Part shown: in pieces, positions 10,322-25,419 of the stretch
Layout of the letters: every line of letters begins with the position of its first letter
How positions within the stretch are numbered: the stretch's first letter is position 1
Assembly: GCA_030431515.1 (NCBI GenBank)
Contig: JAUIIX010000024.1
Span: 1-42,552 of the forward strand
DNA length: 42,552 bases
Source of the DNA: a bacterium
GTDB lineage: Bacteria; Bacteroidota; Ignavibacteria; Kapaibacteriales; UBA2268
Reading direction: 5' to 3'
Made by a program: the position numbers and the translations under genes
Notes under the pieces: model-generated
Database searches by the model: none
Told to the model about the DNA's origin: nothing
Seen by the model: the letters and a program-made list of their open reading frames with translations, nothing else

Positions 10322-10636
10322 TTTTATTAGGACAATTTGAACTTTTTTCAGATTCAATTTTTCCAAATGAAATGAACGCAAATTTGCATTCACTACTTTT
10401 TTTCTGGATATTTTGCTTTGCTCAATGACCTTAAAATTTGCAGTTTTTGCAGAAAATTGCAGTTTTTTGCAGTGGTTTTATTGTGTATTTATTAGTTTTT
10501 ATCCTTTTTTTCGATTGTAATTGTTTGATTATTTGAGATTTATATCATTTATGCAGTTTTTGCAGTAAAAATGGTGTTTTTTTTGGTTTTTGTAGGGGAA
10601 ATTCATGAATTTCCCTTACGGTTACAATTTTTTTAT
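10322..10636. other. Non-coding region with TTGCAG repeats and a long palindrome
   Basis: 315 bases between the convergent glycosyltransferase and small-terminase-like genes. No gene is visible. It contains most of the TTGCAG repeat series and a 20-bp perfect palindrome, listed separately. No clear rho-independent terminator of the 8717 gene was found. Confidence 0.7.
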
Positions 10637-10678
10637 TTACAGTATTTGCAGTTTTTGCAGTAAAAATGGTGTTTTTTT
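10438..10678. repeat. TTGCAG iteron-like repeats in clusters about 95 bp apart
   Basis: TTGCAG (once ATGCAG) starts at 10438, 10447, 10457, 10467, 10551, 10560, 10646 and 10655. Within clusters the spacing is 9-10 bases, close to one helical turn, and clusters recur about 95 bases apart. The last two clusters belong to a 32-bp exact direct repeat, 10552-10583 and 10647-10678, which begins with TGCAGTTTTTGCAG. The second copy lies inside the 3' end of the minus-strand gene 10637-11248 and encodes its last residues. Confidence 0.8.
10592..10619. repeat. 28-bp palindrome (REP-like)
   Basis: The core GGGAAATTCATGAATTTCCC (10596-10615) is a perfect 20-bp palindrome. It extends outward to GTA...TAC with one G/T mismatched pair, giving 28 bases. 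Short palindromes of the form GTAGGGG...CCCnTAC are dispersed in many environmental bacterial genomes. It lies between the two 32-bp repeat copies. There is no T-run, so a terminator role is unlikely. Confidence 0.75.
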
Positions 10679-11248
10679 GTTTTCTTGTTGTAATTTATTT
10701 GGTGATTTGTTTGATTGATTACTTAATTTAGTTAGATTGTTTGTTAGTTTTTCTGTTTTTGGTAATAGATTCTCACTTTGGTTGATATTTTCAAATTCTG
10801 CTTCTTCGAGTTTTTCGTAAAGTTTTAGATATTGTAGGTATGATTGCATTAGTTTGTTCATTTTTTGAACTGTTAGGAATTTGTCTTCTTCTTCTTTGAT
10901 GATTTCATCAGGGTTTATTGTGCTTAATATACTCATTGCATTAATGATATTTTGTTTCATTCTTAATATGTTTTGAGAATGCTCTTTTCCTACTATTGCT
11001 TCTTGTTCAATTTCATTTTTGAAAAGTGTTTCTTTTAATATTTGGTCAAAATCTGCAGCTCTTTCTTTCCAAAAATATTTATTTGATAGGTCGTATAGAC
11101 TTCTTTCACTTTTGTTGCTTTCTTTTGTGAAGTTTTTAATGCTTCTATTTTTACCTGTGTTCAAATACCATTTAAAAAGTGAATAGTATGAATTATTTTC
11201 GTTTGGTAGTTGCTCTGGGTATGCGTTTTCTAATGCTTGCTCTATCAT
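10637..11248 (-). CDS. Phage terminase small-subunit-like DNA-binding protein (orphan)
   Basis: 203 residues. Residues about 20-70 contain YSLFKWYLNTGKNRS, an HTH-like segment (SIKNFTKESNKSERSLYDLS) and FWKERAADFD, the pattern I associate with phage small-terminase-like or phage-derived HTH proteins. The middle (80-160) is charged and helical, and the tail is rich in Asn, Lys and Leu. The last dozen residues (KKTPFLLQKLQIL) are encoded by one copy of a 32-bp repeat. An AAAGGA Shine-Dalgarno lies 7-8 bases before the ATG. No large terminase, portal or capsid gene is nearby, so this is an isolated remnant or domesticated gene. The family call is by eye and moderate. Confidence 0.6.
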   Translation of the reverse strand: MIEQALENAYPEQLPNENNSYYSLFKWYLNTGKNRSIKNFTKESNKSERSLYDLSNKYFWKERAADFDQILKETLFKNEIEQEAIVGKEHSQNILRMKQNIINAMSILSTINPDEIIKEEEDKFLTVQKMNKLMQSYLQYLKLYEKLEEAEFENINQSENLLPKTEKLTNNLTKLSNQSNKSPNKLQQENKKTPFLLQKLQIL

Positions 11249-11405
11249 TTTTTTTCCTTTTATTTGTAAGATTTTTTACAAATTTAGGGTTGTGGATTGC
11301 AAATATAAAGGAATTTATTGTAAATATATTTTAAAATATTTTTAATTTATTTTTAAAAATACGTGATTGGTGTTTTTTGATTTTATAACAATTTTTATGA
11401 ATTAT

Positions 11406-11666: not shown

Positions 11667-13436
11667 CTATTTTTCTTTTTTAATTTCATCCCAATTATTT
11701 ATTATAAAAAGTATATTATGTAAGTTGTCAACACAAGCATATATCATTTGATAACCTTGTATTATAGTAGGTAAAGATCTATCTATTCTAATCAGTTCAA
11801 ATGACTTTTCAATATCGCTACTTGGTAAATGTGCATCTCCATGTCTTAATTCATACACTCCAACAAAAGGACTGGTTATTTTTTTTGCTTCTTCTTGTGG
11901 AATTTTTTTTGCCAATAGATTTTCAATAATTTTTATTGATCCTATTTTATTACTTTTAGAAATACTTGCAATTTTCTTTAGTGATTCGACATCAACGTCA
12001 TCAACAATTATTCTAGCAATATCTTTAGCCAGTGATAATAATCCATTTTCATCGACAGCTCTAAATCTATGAATTGAGTTCATTAATTCATTTACAATTT
12101 CATGACCTCTAAAGAATGGTAAATTAAATTGACTTTTTGATGCAATATTTATTTCATTTATGATACTTTCGAGAAATGCTTCTGGTGATTTTGTTGATGC
12201 TGGATTGGCCTTAACTTGAGAGTCATGTAATTCTTTTGAAATGCCACCTTCTGGTGATATATTATGTCCAACCCATATTTGTTGTTGCCATAAAGGTAAT
12301 TTTCCTATATCTTTAGCATATACTGAAATTAATCCCAATTCATTTACGCCAAAATGAACTCCTGAAGAGGGTCCACATGAAATACTTCCAGTGTCTTTAG
12401 TGAACCATTTTATAAAACTACCCCTCATAGAAAGCAAATTATTAACCAAACTTGGTTTAAACCATAGCCACTTTCCACCTTTAATCAACTCATTTCCACT
12501 TTCTTTGTTTCCTGCTGCATCTACTATATAAAATATGTCAATATTTTCTTTTTGTCCCAAAGTGATTATACTAGTTTTGGTTGGATTAATCCATTCATAT
12601 TTCCAAAGTTCAGCTATTATTTCATACAGTTTTTTTCCTTTAAAGCTTTTTTCTTTAGATACAGTTATTGTATTTTCGTCATCAGGAAAAGAAGTCATAT
12701 CAGGTATATCATCATCTTCATCAACGTCTATACGACTAACATGTGTAAATGATATATTTTGACCATATGGAAAACCACCTTCATGCACCTCTAACACTCT
12801 GCATTCCCAATAATCTTTCTCTTCTTTTGAACTTTTAACATCTTCTTTCCATGTTAAAATTGATTTGTTATTAAATAATTTATTTCTACTAAAATATGAA
12901 GTTACATATATTCCACAACCTCTTGCACACAAATAGTCTTTAAGGTATTGGTTCTTTATTTTAAGAATATTTGGACTTCCATCTTGTTCTCTCTCAAGTT
13001 TTGCAACTTCTACATACCCTTTCCTTGGACAGACCCAAATATCTCCTTCCCTCTTAAGCCCTAAATTAATTACTAAGTCTTGATGTAAGTGCCATTCATC
13101 AATGTCATAATTATTATCAAAACTTTGATTCAGAACCAAATGTGTTCCTTGAAACTCATCTGCTTTTAATATATCTGATTGTGAATATTCTCCAAAGACA
13201 AAATTTAGACCTTTAGGATTATCAAACTCAATATTATTAATATCTAAATTTTCGATAACACTTCTTTTTTCAACTGGAATCATCAAAGAACTATGTCTTA
13301 AAAATTCTTCTTGATATCCGATTTTACCATAGCCAATATTATTTTTTATTAATTTTTCTGCATAAAGAGGAACCCAAACCGAATTATTCAGTTTGTGTTT
13401 TTTCAAGTCTTGCATTTCAAACCATGATTGATTCAT
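11667..13436 (-). CDS. Unrecognised 589-aa protein, possible C-terminal HEPN-like domain
   Basis: Not confidently assigned to a family. The N-terminal two thirds (1-410) is mixed alpha/beta, with an acidic segment DVDEDDDIPD (237-246) and a block WLWFKPSLVNNLL...DTGSISC (about 323-354) followed by PLWQQQIWVGHNISPEGGIS (381-400). That block recalls a hypothetical-protein family seen in defence-like contexts (recollection, not a search). The C-terminal part (about 440-589) looks all-helical and contains RHGDAH (531-536), which satisfies the Rx4-6H motif of HEPN RNases. There are no membrane segments or signal peptide. It lies 118 bases downstream of the RES-domain gene on the same strand. I infer a two-gene toxin or defence module, but function is open. 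Confidence 0.75.
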   Translation of the reverse strand: MNQSWFEMQDLKKHKLNNSVWVPLYAEKLIKNNIGYGKIGYQEEFLRHSSLMIPVEKRSVIENLDINNIEFDNPKGLNFVFGEYSQSDILKADEFQGTHLVLNQSFDNNYDIDEWHLHQDLVINLGLKREGDIWVCPRKGYVEVAKLEREQDGSPNILKIKNQYLKDYLCARGCGIYVTSYFSRNKLFNNKSILTWKEDVKSSKEEKDYWECRVLEVHEGGFPYGQNISFTHVSRIDVDEDDDIPDMTSFPDDENTITVSKEKSFKGKKLYEIIAELWKYEWINPTKTSIITLGQKENIDIFYIVDAAGNKESGNELIKGGKWLWFKPSLVNNLLSMRGSFIKWFTKDTGSISCGPSSGVHFGVNELGLISVYAKDIGKLPLWQQQIWVGHNISPEGGISKELHDSQVKANPASTKSPEAFLESIINEINIASKSQFNLPFFRGHEIVNELMNSIHRFRAVDENGLLSLAKDIARIIVDDVDVESLKKIASISKSNKIGSIKIIENLLAKKIPQEEAKKITSPFVGVYELRHGDAHLPSSDIEKSFELIRIDRSLPTIIQGYQMIYACVDNLHNILFIINNWDEIKKEK

Positions 13437-13554: not shown

Positions 13555-14847
13555 TCACATCAAGTAATAATTTCTCACTGTCAATAAATTATGATATAAT
13601 AAATAATAATGAACCTGACCGGTTGGATGTTCAGAATATTGAATATAGTTATCACTACTAAATTCTTTTACCAATAAATTTTTAAGTGAGATATCTGTTG
13701 AAATCCCTGAAAATTCCGCTAAACTTCCTAAAGTATTAAATTTTGGATTATTATTTTCAGATTGAATAATGTAATTTTTCAATTTTTCAATTTCCTTAAA
13801 ATCTATTTTGTAGGCATCCCTTAATTTGATAGGTTTAGAAACTTCAAACTTTGAAATAAGATCTAAGTCATATTTTAATTCGGGATTATATTTTGTAAAA
13901 AGTGCCAAATTTAATTTGTGTCTGTTTACATAAAAAGGTTCTTCTGAATATGCTAATGAATTATTAATTCTTGTTGATGTAAAAAGTATGCCTTCATATT
14001 CATCATTTCTAATAATTTCAGTTATAAGTTGAGGCAATACGTATTCTTCACAAAATGACCAACTTTCAGATTCCTTTTTTCTTTTGAATGAACAAATTGA
14101 AATTAGAATTGTTTTGTAAAATATTCTGTTAGTGTCATCGTAATAGGTAAATTGAGGGTCATCAAATTTAATGTTACCACCACTATTAGCAATATTATCA
14201 ATTGTTTTTAGTAAAGATTCAAACTCACTTGTGAAATCTAGTACTTTCAATGTTTGATTTGGTTTAAGAAGAAAAGAAGAAAAATTAATATCAACGAAAT
14301 CTGCATTTTGAAGTTTTAGCTCTGCAAAAATATCTAATATTGAAAGTCCTAAATAGATTAAAGGTTGACCAGATATACTATATCTTTGATTAGAAATTAA
14401 ATAACGTTTGTCAAAAGGTATATGCAAAAGCTCATCTGTGTCTAAATATTTTTTTGAAAACCGACCTCTGAAAAAAAACCTATTATCAAATTTATAAGTT
14501 TGATTTAAAAGTTTATAATTCTTAACTAAAATAGAGAGTTCATCAATGGATTCTTTAATTCGTCCATTTATCCATTTCAGATAAACATTTTTTATTTCTT
14601 CAAAAAAAGAACCAATATCTGATAGTTTACATAATGATTCATGTAAATCAAAAGCCCACTTTTTAGTTTGATTATTACAAATTTTATGCTTTTCACATAG
14701 ATACACAATTTCTAGATTATTAAACTCGAAAATAAAATTTGTTTTATATTCTGATATAGTATCTTCAAATTTAAGAGTTCGCTGTTGAGAAATATTTCTT
14801 AGTTTTTCTTGAAAGTCATCTTCGAAAAAGCAAATTATGCAAGCCAT
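13555..14847 (-). CDS. RES-domain protein with N-terminal zinc-finger-like motif
   Basis: 430 residues. C3-x2-C6 and C51-x2-H54 (plus C57) could form a zinc site. The central region (about 122-340) matches the RES fold: FFFRGRF (124-130), HIPFDKR (142-148), QRYSISGQPLIYLG (154-167) and FAELKL with Glu176. The HIPF..R...QRYS.xGxPxxYL string is typical of long stand-alone RES proteins. Characterised RES toxins (MbcT, ParT) act on NAD+ or ADP-ribosylate a target, but are far shorter and sit beside an Xre-type antitoxin. None is visible here; the neighbour is the 589-aa protein. A C-terminal region of about 90 residues is unassigned. Candidate catalytic residues are Arg127 or Arg129, Tyr165 and Glu176, assigned by position only. 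Confidence 0.72.
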   Translation of the reverse strand: MACIICFFEDDFQEKLRNISQQRTLKFEDTISEYKTNFIFEFNNLEIVYLCEKHKICNNQTKKWAFDLHESLCKLSDIGSFFEEIKNVYLKWINGRIKESIDELSILVKNYKLLNQTYKFDNRFFFRGRFSKKYLDTDELLHIPFDKRYLISNQRYSISGQPLIYLGLSILDIFAELKLQNADFVDINFSSFLLKPNQTLKVLDFTSEFESLLKTIDNIANSGGNIKFDDPQFTYYDDTNRIFYKTILISICSFKRKKESESWSFCEEYVLPQLITEIIRNDEYEGILFTSTRINNSLAYSEEPFYVNRHKLNLALFTKYNPELKYDLDLISKFEVSKPIKLRDAYKIDFKEIEKLKNYIIQSENNNPKFNTLGSLAEFSGISTDISLKNLLVKEFSSDNYIQYSEHPTGQVHYYLLYHNLLTVRNYYLM

Positions 14848-19843: not shown

Positions 19844-22045
19844 CTATTTTAATTTAATTTTAATTGAATCGTTTAGAAAAAATAATTTATTCATTACACT
19901 TGCAATTCTAGTGATACAATTTGATGCTGAAATGTTTATATGAATAAACAACAAGTCGTCATTTAATTCTTTAACCTTGTCCCAAACCTTACCGTCAAAT
20001 GTTTTATACCTACTTGTCAAATCAATATTCGAGTCTATTAATTCCTTTAAGGAACTCCACTTTAAGATAGTTTCATCACGTCTAAACATATCAAGTTGAT
20101 TGTCTAAAATATAATCAAAATCATATTCAGGCTTATCCTTCAAATATTTTAAAAACTTGATAAATACGTCTTGCCACGAATTAACTTTTATAATGTCGTT
20201 TAAAATTTGTAGCTCTAAAGGTTTATTGCCTTCTGCAATATCTCCTGCATCAGAATCTAGTGGAGAGAATTGAGTACTTTCAATTATTTGGGTATTCCAA
20301 TTTGCTTTATCCTTGTAATGGTCGGGTAATGGGAAAGTTTCTAAAAACCAATTTACCATATTAGATTGGTGTTCCTTGATGCTTTGCTCATTCCAAATAT
20401 TTCGATTTATAATGTCAAGCCTATAATTGAGTGATGAAGTATTGAGTTTTCTTTTCTTTTCTTCGAATGATTTATTACCTATTTCGCTGTTAAACTCTGT
20501 AAGAATTAGATTACCTATGTTATGTAAGTAATTCTTGTGGATTTCTAAAAAGTTTTCATCTAATTCGACTTTCCAACTATCCTCTAATTTTTGGGGCATT
20601 ATATGCTCAATTGTGATTTTAGGATTACGGAAGTCCACTGATACCTTAGAGTTGTGTTCTTCAATCTTTCCTAAGATAAGTTTTGAATATTGTTTTAGAC
20701 TTTCATAAAAATTCATTGAAATAAGTGCCGAACTCATTTCTGAGTTATTCGGTAATCTTAATCTATAAAACATATTAGTAAGGAGTTCTATCATTGAAAT
20801 GTTGCCTTTGGCAATACCTTCTATCTTTTTGCTTAAAAGGACAATGTTTTTGTTCTCGCCTTGGGTTAAACCTAATATTCTACGTCTTATCAAATAAGTT
20901 CTAATTGATTTGAGAGTTGAAATCAAGATTTCATCGCTAAGTCTTATGCCATCAATTGTGTATTGATGGTATTCCAAAAGTCCTAATACAAAAGGTTTAA
21001 ATGCTTCAGCTTTTATGTCGTGGAAAATGTTTCTTATCAACTCCTTTATTTCTTTGTCTTTGTAGTTGTCATTTGAAATAATATCGTTATTAATTTCAGA
21101 CATAATCCACTTATAGCATTTCACATATCTTACAATGTCATTAATAAAAGCATTATGATTTTCAAACCCTGAATCAACAAAGTCCTTAAATTGCTGATAA
21201 AGTTCTTTTGTATTATTGTCGCTAACCACCTTAAGGGAACTTACAGTTTTATATTGTAAATAATCTCTAAAAAACTTTGATGTGTTCTCAAATAGTACTT
21301 CTTCAATTTTTGGATGCCATATTTTTTCATAAATATCAGACTGATTTTTACTTTCCATATTTAGGAGTACAAAGTTTCTAACAAGGTCTGATAATGTTAG
21401 AGGTTTTCCTAATGAGTTTAAAGTTTCAAATATTATTTGAGGGTCTTCACCCTTGAATGGTCTTTCATCAAGAAAAATCACAGCTACATTCATTCGTTGA
21501 ATTGCAATTACATAATGCTCAAAATCAATTTCTGGTTTAAGTCGTTTCTTTTCGTTTATAAACTTTTTCAGTAATTCATATGCATTGCTTATCACTCCTG
21601 GATTTGGTTGTGTTTTATTTACAAGTGCCTTGTAAGAATCCCAATCTTTGGTTACTTGTTTAAGTTTAATTTTATCTTGAAAAGATGAAGAATTGTTTGT
21701 TAAATAATTTTGATTTATAAAATCTTGTTTTACTGGGTCGGTTTCAGTATCTCTTAGTGCAATTAAAAATATTAGTGTTGTAGTAAGTCTTTGTTGTCCA
21801 TCTACAACTACAGACTTGTTTGCGAATCCTGCTTTTTCTTCTTTGATAACTACTGTTCCAAAAAAGTGTTCTAATTTATCGTGTTGTTTAGCATCTAAGT
21901 GCGATTCAATAATTCTTGACACATCACTAAAGTATCTTTCGATTTCGGGCTTTCCCCAAGCATAGGCTCTTTGAAAAGGAGGAATAAAAAATGATGTTGC
22001 ATTTTTTGCTAAAACGTCATTTATTGAATGGCTTTCTGTTTTCAT
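19844..22045 (-). CDS. GmrSD-like DUF262/DUF1524 protein (type IV restriction-like)
   Basis: 733 residues. The N-terminal DUF262 (ParB/Srx-like) domain has FFIPPFQRAYAWG (19-31) and VVDGQQRLTTT (80-90), the motif associated with NTP-dependent activity. A long helical middle (about 150-460) leads to a C-terminal DUF1524 His-Me-finger nuclease-like region with TIEHIMPQKLEDSW (His481) and HNIGNLILTEFNSEIGN (508-524). About 130 extra residues follow (600-733) and are unassigned. Fused GmrS/GmrD-type proteins cleave modified phage DNA, so a defence role is likely, though the specificity is unknown. The gene stands alone between receptor and efflux genes, with no methyltransferase nearby. Confidence 0.9.
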   Translation of the reverse strand: MKTESHSINDVLAKNATSFFIPPFQRAYAWGKPEIERYFSDVSRIIESHLDAKQHDKLEHFFGTVVIKEEKAGFANKSVVVDGQQRLTTTLIFLIALRDTETDPVKQDFINQNYLTNNSSSFQDKIKLKQVTKDWDSYKALVNKTQPNPGVISNAYELLKKFINEKKRLKPEIDFEHYVIAIQRMNVAVIFLDERPFKGEDPQIIFETLNSLGKPLTLSDLVRNFVLLNMESKNQSDIYEKIWHPKIEEVLFENTSKFFRDYLQYKTVSSLKVVSDNNTKELYQQFKDFVDSGFENHNAFINDIVRYVKCYKWIMSEINNDIISNDNYKDKEIKELIRNIFHDIKAEAFKPFVLGLLEYHQYTIDGIRLSDEILISTLKSIRTYLIRRRILGLTQGENKNIVLLSKKIEGIAKGNISMIELLTNMFYRLRLPNNSEMSSALISMNFYESLKQYSKLILGKIEEHNSKVSVDFRNPKITIEHIMPQKLEDSWKVELDENFLEIHKNYLHNIGNLILTEFNSEIGNKSFEEKKRKLNTSSLNYRLDIINRNIWNEQSIKEHQSNMVNWFLETFPLPDHYKDKANWNTQIIESTQFSPLDSDAGDIAEGNKPLELQILNDIIKVNSWQDVFIKFLKYLKDKPEYDFDYILDNQLDMFRRDETILKWSSLKELIDSNIDLTSRYKTFDGKVWDKVKELNDDLLFIHINISASNCITRIASVMNKLFFLNDSIKIKLK

Positions 22046-22233: not shown

Positions 22234-25200
22234 ATGAGAAGTTTTATAAGATTTTTTATAAAGTATCCTATTTGGACTTGGGCAATCAAAATAATGATAA
22301 TTGGCTTTGGTATCTTAGCTGTTCTTAATATCAAAAGTTCATTTTTCCCCGAAAGAGAAAGTAAATCTATAAATGTTAATTTAGTTTACCCTGGTGCATC
22401 TCCAGAAGAAATTGAACGTGGGGTAATTCAAAAAATTGAAGATAACTTAAAGGGTGTTCAAGGAATTGAGAAGTACGAATCTACTTCGAAAGAAAATTTA
22501 GGTGCAGTGAATATCGAAGTTTTTGAGGGGTATAATACTGATGAAGTACTTCAAGATGTGAAAAATGCTGTTGATAGAATAAATTCCTTCCCAATTGGAC
22601 TTGAGCCACCAGTAGTAGCCAAAAGACCTCAAATCGAGTTTGCTTTTAGCTTTGCTATTTATGGTGATGTGGACTTAAAAACACTTAAATTAGCTGCTCA
22701 AGATATTGAAGATGACTTGAGAGAAGTTCCTGAAATTTCTCAAGTAGAACTGTCTGGTTTCCCTGCAGAAGAGATTGTACTTTATGTAAAAGAAGAAAAT
22801 TTATTAAGATATAATCTTACATTTGATAAAATAGTAGAAGCACTAAGAAAAGCAAATATTGATATTTCGGCTGGAGCAATTAAAACCGAAAAAGAAGAAA
22901 TATTAATTAGATTAGAAAATAAAGTTTATTATGCTGAAAAACTTGAAGATGTAGTTGTTTTTGCTGCTAAAGATGGTAGAGAAATACGAGTTAGGGATAT
23001 AGGGGAAATCAGAAATACTTGGGCAGAAACACCACAAAGATCATTCGTAAATAACCTTCCAGCTGCTTATATTATAGTGAATAAGTTGTTTGGTGAAAAT
23101 ATTCTTGATATAACTGAAAAAGCAAGAGAATATGTAGAAAATTATAACTCAAAAAGTGGTAGAACTTTAACAGCTGAAGTAATAAATGATGCATCAGAAA
23201 GTCTTAGAGGCAGGATTGATATGCTTGTTGCTAATGGGTTGATAGGGTCTTTGTTAGTAATTCTTACTTTAACTTTGTTTATCAATTGGAGATTAGCGCT
23301 TTGGGTGGCTTTCTCGATACCATTTTGTTTTCTGGGAATGTTTGGAGTTGCATATTTAACTGGCTTAACTATTAATGTAATGTCACTATTTGGCTGTATT
23401 GTCGTGGTGGGTATCTTGGTAGATGATGGTATTGTTGTTGCCGAGCAGATTTATCAGAAATATGAAGAAGGAATATCCCCTTATAAAGCAGCAATTGAAG
23501 GAACTTTACAAGTATTAAAATCAGTATTTTTTGCAGTGATGACTACTATTGTTGCTTTCTTACCTTTTTACTTTATGGATACACCTGGTCCAAAAATATC
23601 TGATATGTCATTTGTAGTTATCTTTACTTTATTATTTTCTTTATTAGAAGTATTATTTATTTTACCAACACACTTATCTCATTCTAAAGCATTAGGTAAA
23701 AGAGATAAGAAAGTATTTATATTAAGAGAAAAATTTGATAATGGTTTTAAATATGTTAAAAATGAAATATATGGTAAAACATTAGATTTATTTTTAAATC
23801 ATAAGATTATTCCAATAGTAATGACAATAGCATTTACAATTCTAACATTTGCAGCTATTTCTGGTGGAATTATCAAATTCACTTTATTTCCAAGTATCGA
23901 CAGAGATAATTTTGAAATAAATATAGAATTAACTGCTGGTAGCAGAGAAACTGAAACTTTAGAAGTATTAAATAAAGTAGAAGCCGCTATAAGAACAGTA
24001 AATGAAAGAATTAAAGAAGAAAGAGGAATTGAGGACGATATAATTATTAGAGTAGTGAAAAACTTAGCATCTACTCGTGGTAATTGGGGAACAACTGAAG
24101 GAAGTGGATCTAATGCAGGATATATTCAAGTTCAATTAGCAGATGAAAAAATTAGAAACAAACCTTCGCTTGAAATTGCAACAATGATACAGGAGGAAGT
24201 TGGACCAATTAAAAATATTCAAAAAGCTGAATTTGGGGCAACTACATTTTTTGGTAAACCAATATCTTTCACTTTAGTTGGTAGAAATCTTAAAGAATTA
24301 TCAAAAGCAAAAGAAGAAATAAAGCAAAAGATGTCCGAATTTTCTGAACTTAGAGATATTACAGATAATGACCCACAAGGATATAGAGAAATTCAAATTG
24401 AGTTAAAAGAAAAAGCATATTTACTTGGATTTACTTCAAATGAGATTGCAAGGCAAATCAGACAGGCATTTTTTGGAGAAGAAGTCCAAAGACTTCAACG
24501 TGGTCAAGATGAAGTAAAGATTTGGGTAAAATATGATTTAGAAGGACGATCAAGTATTGATGATTTTGAGCAAATGAGAATCAAAAGAAATAATGAAGAA
24601 ACATACCCGGTAAAAGAACTAATATCTTATGAAATAAAAAGAGGACCTGTTCAGATAAATCATACTGATGGAATGAGACAGATTGCAGTAGAATCTGAAA
24701 TAGTAGATCCTAAAATTGCTATACCTGGCTTAATAACTAAAATCAGAACTGAAGTAATTGACAAAGTTTTATCAAAATACCCAAGTGTTAAAACAATAGT
24801 ATCTGGTCAAGAATATAGGGCAAAGAAATTTCAAGCAGGAAGAATATACATATTTATAGCACTTGCAATTATGTTTTTCCTAATTTCTTTATCATTTCAC
24901 TCATTTATCCAAGCATTTTTAGTATTGGCTTTAGTTCCTTTAGGAGTTTTTGGTGCAATGTGGGGGCATGTTATGCAAGGGCATTTGATGAGTATAATGT
25001 CGTGGTATGGAGTAATTGCTCTTACGGGTATTATTGTTAATGATTCAATTGTACTTGTTAATCAAGTTAATGATAACATTAGAAATGGTTTTGATTTTTT
25101 TGAAGCAGTAAAAGATGCTGCTATCTCAAGATTTAGACCAATTATATTAACAACATTGACTACTGTATTAGGGCTATTGCCTTTATTAGCGGAAACATCA

Positions 25201-25419
25201 GTTCAGGCACAGTTCCTAATCCCAATGGCAGTATCTGTAGCATTCGGATTAATGTTTGCTTCTATTTTTGTTTTATTCTTATTACCATCGCTGTTGATTA
25301 TTATTAATAGTATAAAATTAACAATAAAATGGATATTGACAGGAGAACGACTTTCGCCACTCGCAGTAGAGCCAGCGTTTATAGAAAAACAAAATATTGA
25401 AAAATATTTAAATGAGTAA
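22234..25419 (+). CDS. RND-family efflux pump (AcrB/MexB-like inner-membrane transporter)
   Basis: 1061 residues, the usual RND length. It has a first membrane segment (about 12-34), a long periplasmic loop with the PGASPEEIE motif, six clustered membrane segments including the proton-relay motif VGILVDDGIVVAEQ (the Asp-Asp pair of AcrB), a second periplasmic loop, and a second cluster with ALTGIIVNDSIVLVNQV. By family it exports drugs, solutes or envelope components across the outer membrane with an adaptor and TolC. The adaptor candidate is at 16264 and the outer-membrane factor candidate at 31806-33101; neither is adjacent. The promoter is not clear, and the upstream inverted repeat at 22084-22130 may regulate it. 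Confidence 0.93.
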   Translation: MRSFIRFFIKYPIWTWAIKIMIIGFGILAVLNIKSSFFPERESKSINVNLVYPGASPEEIERGVIQKIEDNLKGVQGIEKYESTSKENLGAVNIEVFEGYNTDEVLQDVKNAVDRINSFPIGLEPPVVAKRPQIEFAFSFAIYGDVDLKTLKLAAQDIEDDLREVPEISQVELSGFPAEEIVLYVKEENLLRYNLTFDKIVEALRKANIDISAGAIKTEKEEILIRLENKVYYAEKLEDVVVFAAKDGREIRVRDIGEIRNTWAETPQRSFVNNLPAAYIIVNKLFGENILDITEKAREYVENYNSKSGRTLTAEVINDASESLRGRIDMLVANGLIGSLLVILTLTLFINWRLALWVAFSIPFCFLGMFGVAYLTGLTINVMSLFGCIVVVGILVDDGIVVAEQIYQKYEEGISPYKAAIEGTLQVLKSVFFAVMTTIVAFLPFYFMDTPGPKISDMSFVVIFTLLFSLLEVLFILPTHLSHSKALGKRDKKVFILREKFDNGFKYVKNEIYGKTLDLFLNHKIIPIVMTIAFTILTFAAISGGIIKFTLFPSIDRDNFEINIELTAGSRETETLEVLNKVEAAIRTVNERIKEERGIEDDIIIRVVKNLASTRGNWGTTEGSGSNAGYIQVQLADEKIRNKPSLEIATMIQEEVGPIKNIQKAEFGATTFFGKPISFTLVGRNLKELSKAKEEIKQKMSEFSELRDITDNDPQGYREIQIELKEKAYLLGFTSNEIARQIRQAFFGEEVQRLQRGQDEVKIWVKYDLEGRSSIDDFEQMRIKRNNEETYPVKELISYEIKRGPVQINHTDGMRQIAVESEIVDPKIAIPGLITKIRTEVIDKVLSKYPSVKTIVSGQEYRAKKFQAGRIYIFIALAIMFFLISLSFHSFIQAFLVLALVPLGVFGAMWGHVMQGHLMSIMSWYGVIALTGIIVNDSIVLVNQVNDNIRNGFDFFEAVKDAAISRFRPIILTTLTTVLGLLPLLAETSVQAQFLIPMAVSVAFGLMFASIFVLFLLPSLLIIINSIKLTIKWILTGERLSPLAVEPAFIEKQNIEKYLNE

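Follow-up and report, generated by a model that had tools for sequence, protein, structure and literature searches.

A gene resembling that of a phage small terminase, with groups of short direct repeats at its 3′ end, raises the question of what kind of unit the two form in a bacterial chromosome. The gene occupies 10637-11248 on the minus strand of the window (the whole 42,552-nt stretch of DNA that was analysed) and encodes an orphan small-terminase (TerS)-like protein of 203 aa, with an N-terminal HTH at residues 19-57 followed by long helices.

The repeats were mapped between 10438 and 10660. On the plus strand, TGCAG occurs at 10439, 10448, 10458 and 10468 (cluster 1), at 10552 and 10561 (cluster 2), and at 10647 and 10656 (cluster 2′), with a period of 9-10 bp within clusters. 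The eight TTGCAG-type hexamers at 9-10 bases described in the initial annotation were all recovered, seven as full TTGCAG and the one at 10552 as ATGCAG. The spacing of about 95 bases given there for the clusters holds for clusters 2 and 2′ (95 bp), whereas the starts of clusters 1 and 2 are separated by 113 bp, and its description of repeats that flank and enter the 3′ end of the gene was accurate, cluster 2′ lying inside and clusters 1 and 2 outside. Every other 230-bp stretch of the window held at most two TTGCAG on the plus strand, 300 shuffles of the region gave a maximum of three repeats on either strand, and a chain of four repeats at 9-10 bp was never reached in 40 shuffles. The pattern is far beyond chance.

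Cluster 1 (10438-10472, plus strand) contains four TTGCAG hexamers 9-10 bp apart and is followed by a spacer (10473-10551, plus strand) that gives a cluster-to-cluster distance of 84 bp, like most copies elsewhere in the genome. Cluster 2 (10551-10584, plus strand) consists of two TGCAG spanning 10551-10565 and a conserved tail, TAAAAATGGTGTTTTTT. A palindromic repeat, GTAGGGGAAATTCATGAATTTCCCTTAC, is nested within the module at 10592-10619, and the composite containing it recurs elsewhere in the genome at 92-95% identity. Cluster 2′ (10646-10688, plus strand) is a partial duplication of cluster 2 (42 nt, 90% identical; repeat family D2), with its repeat pair at 10646-10660, and the sole cluster inside the gene, where it encodes the C-terminal residues ...LQKLQIL and abuts the stop codon. 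Unlike an iteron plasmid origin, the window has a protein that matches TerS rather than Rep, and repeats with a period of 9-10 bp rather than iterons of ~20 bp.

The resemblance of the protein to phage small terminases, also put forward in the initial annotation, was borne out by a profile search and by the predicted fold. Residues 12-191 matched PHROG 6299 'terminase small subunit' (E = 5.4e-11), and the same profile was matched by 17 of 17 aligned relatives. The AlphaFold2 model (mean pLDDT 83.5) comprises an N-terminal HTH and two long helices. Among the VIA fold matches, the G20C and P74-26 small terminases were near the top for the helical part, with Z of 7.4-7.5, which is weak for helical models; phBC6A51 was among the weak fold matches to the HTH part, and several phage terminase small subunits were among the weak matches from a viral structure library. 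Foldseek with the model gave no match at E ≤ 0.001 (best PDB match E 0.96), Pfam gave no match to the protein, and neither did searches of phage, viral-contig and genome-contig sequences with the window protein or A1. Judged by profile and model, the resemblance is real but weak. Only E17, W60 and R63 are invariant across the 17 relatives, all in or beside the HTH region, and as aligned they give no hint of a catalytic site; no recognisable catalytic domain was found in the protein. Nor was TerL or any other packaging gene found near the window gene, the neighbours of which are ordinary bacterial genes or unassigned ORFs, in agreement with its earlier description as an orphan.

The repeat module was then sought across the 3.55-Mb genome to which the window belongs (G000). 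The pattern TGCAGTTTTTGCAG occurs 39 times and its reversed control pattern not at all, and BLAST of the module gave 80 matches, of which 40 regions were inspected. The recurring unit, designated LE, is a TGCAG cluster with a 9-10 bp period, a spacer, and a second TGCAG pair followed by TAAAATCGGTGTTTTTT; the genome holds ~31 such modules, with the second repeat cluster 84 bp on from the first. When 31 modules were aligned, the four inner TGCAG pentamers were 88-99% identical (95-99% for the two belonging to cluster 1), compared with 71.5% in the remaining columns, or 58% if only G/C columns outside the pentamers are counted. In 19 of the 28 copies where it could be measured, the cluster-to-cluster distance was precisely 84 bp, and it fell within 83-85 bp in 24; in two copies (L060 and L087) the spacer was of largely different sequence and nearly unchanged length. 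Eighty-four base pairs correspond to about eight helical turns, a spacing that a rigid protein-DNA complex would select.

A few hundred bp after most LE modules, and in the same orientation, comes a conserved stretch, TTTTTATAAAGATTTTTATTTTAAAATATTTGTAATTTATTTTTAAAGATACGTG, designated RE. In the window, RE forms the upstream end of the element (11315-11366), is A/T-rich, ends in TTTATTTTTAAAAATACGTG and lies just upstream of the start codon, so that the gene sits between LE and RE, read towards LE, in an element of ~0.93 kb. The only ORF found between the element ends was TerS-like, with no transposase, integrase or nuclease, and no integrase, regulatory or replication genes of the satellite kind were present within the element. 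A search against Rfam for structured RNA gave no credible family.

The RE motif also follows LE where the gene is missing. About 20 further copies in the genome keep both LE and RE in the same orientation without the gene; among the fetched LE-RE copies of the window subfamily, only that in the window has an intact TerS ORF, the remainder holding unrelated nested palindromic repeats. Since both ends are retained and the gene is absent, these copies are read as derivatives of a two-ended element by internal deletion, and in sequence they look like MITE-like derivatives that keep both cis ends. The likeness to MITEs and other non-autonomous derivatives lies in the many short dispersed copies that carry both parental ends and lack the gene. 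Unlike MITEs, the element has no terminal inverted repeats or detectable target duplication, and its parent encodes a TerS-like protein rather than a transposase. The intergenic DNA of this genome contains many nested palindromes in and around elements, including GTAGGGGAAATTCATGAATTTCCC, CATTCTGAGCGAAGCG... and GTTTACAAACATTTTGCATCTAAAGATGCAA (window 10592-10619; L064, L084).

A second set of gene-bearing copies was found in the same genome. Four intact related genes, with a 235-codon open frame ~25% identical to the window protein, lie at four unrelated loci and share ~1.1 kb that runs from a different LE, devoid of TGCAG, to an RE of the same kind as that of the window, a similar motif being present upstream of the gene in all four. 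Three extra pieces of this sister subfamily stop at contig ends and are probably copies broken by the assembly; reading three fragments (C24, C55 and C44) as internal deletions was rejected, the copies being cut by contig ends. Values of dN/dS among the four sister copies were 0.07-0.24, and pairs from other genomes of the family gave 0.08-0.27. Because of the values among the four copies, the TerS-like protein is judged, in these paralogues, to be under purifying selection, i.e. in use.

The same design was apparent in another genus. In one genome (G076), a single orphan gene is bounded by an LE in which GGTGCAGATTTGTGCATCCGGAGCAGATTTG occurs and by an RE made up of one to four 11-bp ATGGTTTTAAA units; LE has more than 30 matches there, and 19 of 20 fetched gene-less copies consist of LE then RE, 235-490 bp apart. 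A second genome (G075) has a design resembling this one, gene-less copies included. Species differ in whether a given orthologous locus carries a copy, and at lpxD the two genomes have theirs in opposite orientations; taken together, these differences suggest repeated, independent insertions. The gene-bearing copies of G075 and of a third genome (G022) carry four or five GTGACAA/GGACAAA-type repeats within the 3′ end of the gene and a second cluster of three or four repeats ~70-100 bp beyond the first; this is the architecture seen in the window with a different repeat word. The stop codon falls in or at the iterons both in the window gene and in L106/L159. Nested low-complexity intergenic repeats, e.g. 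TAGGCTGTAGACTGTAGG and TGTCTGAACTGTGATTTAACTGATTAATCTGATTTC, flank elements in G076 (L203-L222) and G075 (L249-L264).

Matches to PHROG 6299 were found in 27 of 54 genomes of the bacterial family, and two named genomes with the gene are 'Ignavibacteria bacterium RIFOXYC2_FULL_35_21' and 'Bacteroidetes bacterium FW215_bin.12'. True phage genes, beside TerL and Mu-like head genes, exist in the family (L168-L174, L177 and L178), but most family members of the TerS gene are orphans with no phage genes around them. A sample of 294 genomes drawn from the whole class gave only three matches outside the family, all of them beside a TerL-like gene; within the class as sampled, the orphan form is seen in this family only. 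Both the gene and the LE sites are patchy among related species. A search of viral sequences with the repeat pattern gave no matches. Nine related phages were also inspected for repeats, and two of them had strong, phage-specific 12-bp iterons, (TGCAAAAACGCA)n in L170 and (GATTTAGCATGC)n in L178, both in the divergent region of the terS operon, with a weaker set in L174. In these two phages or prophages, the stronger sets, 9-13 tandem units in the divergent promoter region (L170 4235-4400, L178 3740-3840), are candidate pac or replication-control sites.

To these findings we give an even chance of being explained by a short chromosomal element that gives rise to repeats and derives from a phage packaging module, the window containing one gene-bearing copy of it. 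This reading builds on a two-ended element with gene-less derivatives, on repeats of conserved geometry and on the selection seen in the paralogous proteins, together with the recurrence of the design in another genus and the signs of repeated insertion. The TerS-like protein would assemble as an oligomer on the hexamers of its LE, in the manner proposed for phage small terminases at pac, and LE and RE would be the cis ends needed for spreading; that gene-less copies have kept RE argues for a cis requirement for both. Gene-less copies would be moved in trans, MITE-fashion. Since the protein has no recognisable catalytic domain, the catalytic step would probably come from outside, from TerL of a related phage or from another nuclease or recombinase; our guess as to the leading candidate enzyme is a phage TerL or other nuclease acting in trans. 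Whether this amounts to a previously undescribed class of mobile element, with a small-terminase homologue as its sole gene, in which copying or insertion is guided by the protein and its pac-like end (perhaps via phage TerL) and MITE-like gene-less copies arise across the family, is a more tentative proposition, and one we regard as rather doubtful at present. The sister subfamily without TGCAG, in the same genome, is a counterpoint to the element reading, as are the absence of terminal inverted repeats, of a target-duplication signal and of an encoded transposase, integrase or nuclease, and the weakness of the structural matches.

The pac site of P1 spans ~160 bp, with groups of hexanucleotides flanking the cut. 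In SPP1, direct repeats in three sets extend across the beginning of the small terminase gene, and cutting takes place in pacC, between pacL and pacR (PMC4737164). Like these headful packaging sites, the element has groups of short direct repeats around a central region, in or next to a TerS gene; unlike them, it is chromosomal, is present in dozens of copies per genome, has no TerL nearby and possesses a linked second end, RE. The window protein likewise resembles PHROG 6299 phage small terminases in its profile match and its HTH and long helices, and its gene differs from theirs in having no adjoining TerL or capsid genes, in being multi-copy and in carrying the element ends. Phage TerS is not invariably adjacent to TerL, and DNA recognition by small terminases has been called elusive and controversial (PMC9611059). 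In vitro, the DNA-binding domain of SF6 TerS favoured pac repeats only slightly (PMC4737164), so that repeats beside terS need not be binding sites.

The proposal in the initial annotation that the repeats are pac or cos recognition sites nevertheless seems the most plausible reading of them, given the TerS-like profile and fold, the lack of a nearby TerL and the pac-like layout, and it gains support from the conserved geometry of LE. The gene-plus-repeat unit expected in relatives was found in the G022 and G075 orphans, where the first of two clusters falls within the 3′-terminal part of the gene. Homologues without repeats nearby had also been envisaged, and these exist as well: about half of the orphan genes tested had no significant iterons nearby and only two or three of the nine phages had any, which counts against the element reading. 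The earlier suggestion that the pair may be a domesticated or satellite-like remnant is not supported. The repeats do occur genome-wide apart from the gene, as the 39 occurrences of TGCAGTTTTTGCAG indicate, which is an outcome that the initial annotation had named as a refutation; the gene-less sites, however, resemble copies of one two-ended element that have lost their interior, and the gene is more aptly called a component of a repeat element that spreads.

The means of movement was sought in several ways. No terminal inverted repeats were found, LE and RE being different sequences, and in 20 G076 copies examined for a target-site duplication the identity of the flanks was not above that of permuted pairs (best z 1.9); some types of element produce no such duplication. 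At orthologous loci the intergenic regions are too diverged for a clean empty site to be read. Mu-like transposition was considered, as related phages have Mu-like head genes, but was rejected, a MuA-type transposase (PF09299) being absent from 11 of 12 genomes, G000 and G076 among them. A tyrosine integrase was rejected as the mover, occurring beside two related loci only and giving no match in G000, and a preference for convergent gene pairs was dismissed as suggestive in G075 and absent in G000. A different TerS-like gene (192-197 aa) lies beside a tyrosine recombinase at L164 5213-7189 (G022) and L166 3927-5933 (G076), a locus that looks conserved in one genus.

Some PICI/SaPI encode their own TerS, and TerS-redirected packaging is established for these satellites. 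The element might accordingly be a minimal phage satellite whose TerS and pac pirate a helper phage, so that LE-adjacent DNA is packaged and gene-less copies serve as extra pac sites. TerS homologues accompanied by TerL in phages of the same bacterial family, and the likeness of the LE layout to the pac sites of P1 and SPP1, fit such an arrangement, which we nonetheless judge unlikely: all other satellite genes are absent, RE is kept in gene-less copies although a pure pac function would not need it, and packaging by itself leaves the insertions at many loci unexplained. The element also differs from PICI/SaPI in being ~1 kb long, in having no integrase, replication or regulatory genes, and in its presence in many places.

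Distinctly less probable is domestication, in which a captured TerS would serve the host as a chromosome-organising or regulatory protein, with LE modules as operator or parS-like sites. Purifying selection, conserved pentamers in an 84-bp geometry and numerous sites per genome would all be expected of such a protein; a host function sits poorly, however, with a gene and sites that are patchy across related species and differ at orthologous loci, with a gene that is multi-copy at unrelated loci, and with gene-less sites that retain RE, the upstream sequence of the gene, which operators would not need. Chance juxtaposition, in which an unrelated intergenic repeat family landed by a decaying prophage terS, is very improbable: other nested repeats do abound between the genes of these genomes and certain orphan genes lack iterons, but in two genera the gene is enclosed by LE and RE in one and the same polarity, its stop codon falls in or at the iterons in the window and L106/L159, and it is under purifying selection in multi-copy paralogues. 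A prophage remnant of the ordinary kind that has kept its pac site, akin to the remnant first suggested, would account for a protein resembling phage TerS; it is hardly credible for a gene that is multi-copy, under selection and furnished with two defined ends, at orphan loci which, where examined in the family, have no other packaging gene alongside.

Searches of the open-access literature found no description of such an element or of an 'orphan terminase small subunit', which is limited evidence of novelty. If the element reading is correct, a phage packaging initiator and its recognition site would have been turned into a self-spreading chromosomal element, a new route to mobility for phage genes. 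Ordinary bacterial chromosomes would then carry dozens of sites resembling packaging starts, which would have consequences for transduction, and the natural sets of co-evolved TerS-repeat pairs could make DNA recognition by small terminases directly testable.

Elsewhere in the window, three ORFs without a PADLOC assignment (11667-13436, 13555-14847 and 22234-25419) lie near a gene at 19847-22045 for a GmrSD-type restriction enzyme (PF03235 and PF07510; PADLOC Orf5/HEC-06/SspE-like), and the region around this gene is possibly rich in defence functions.
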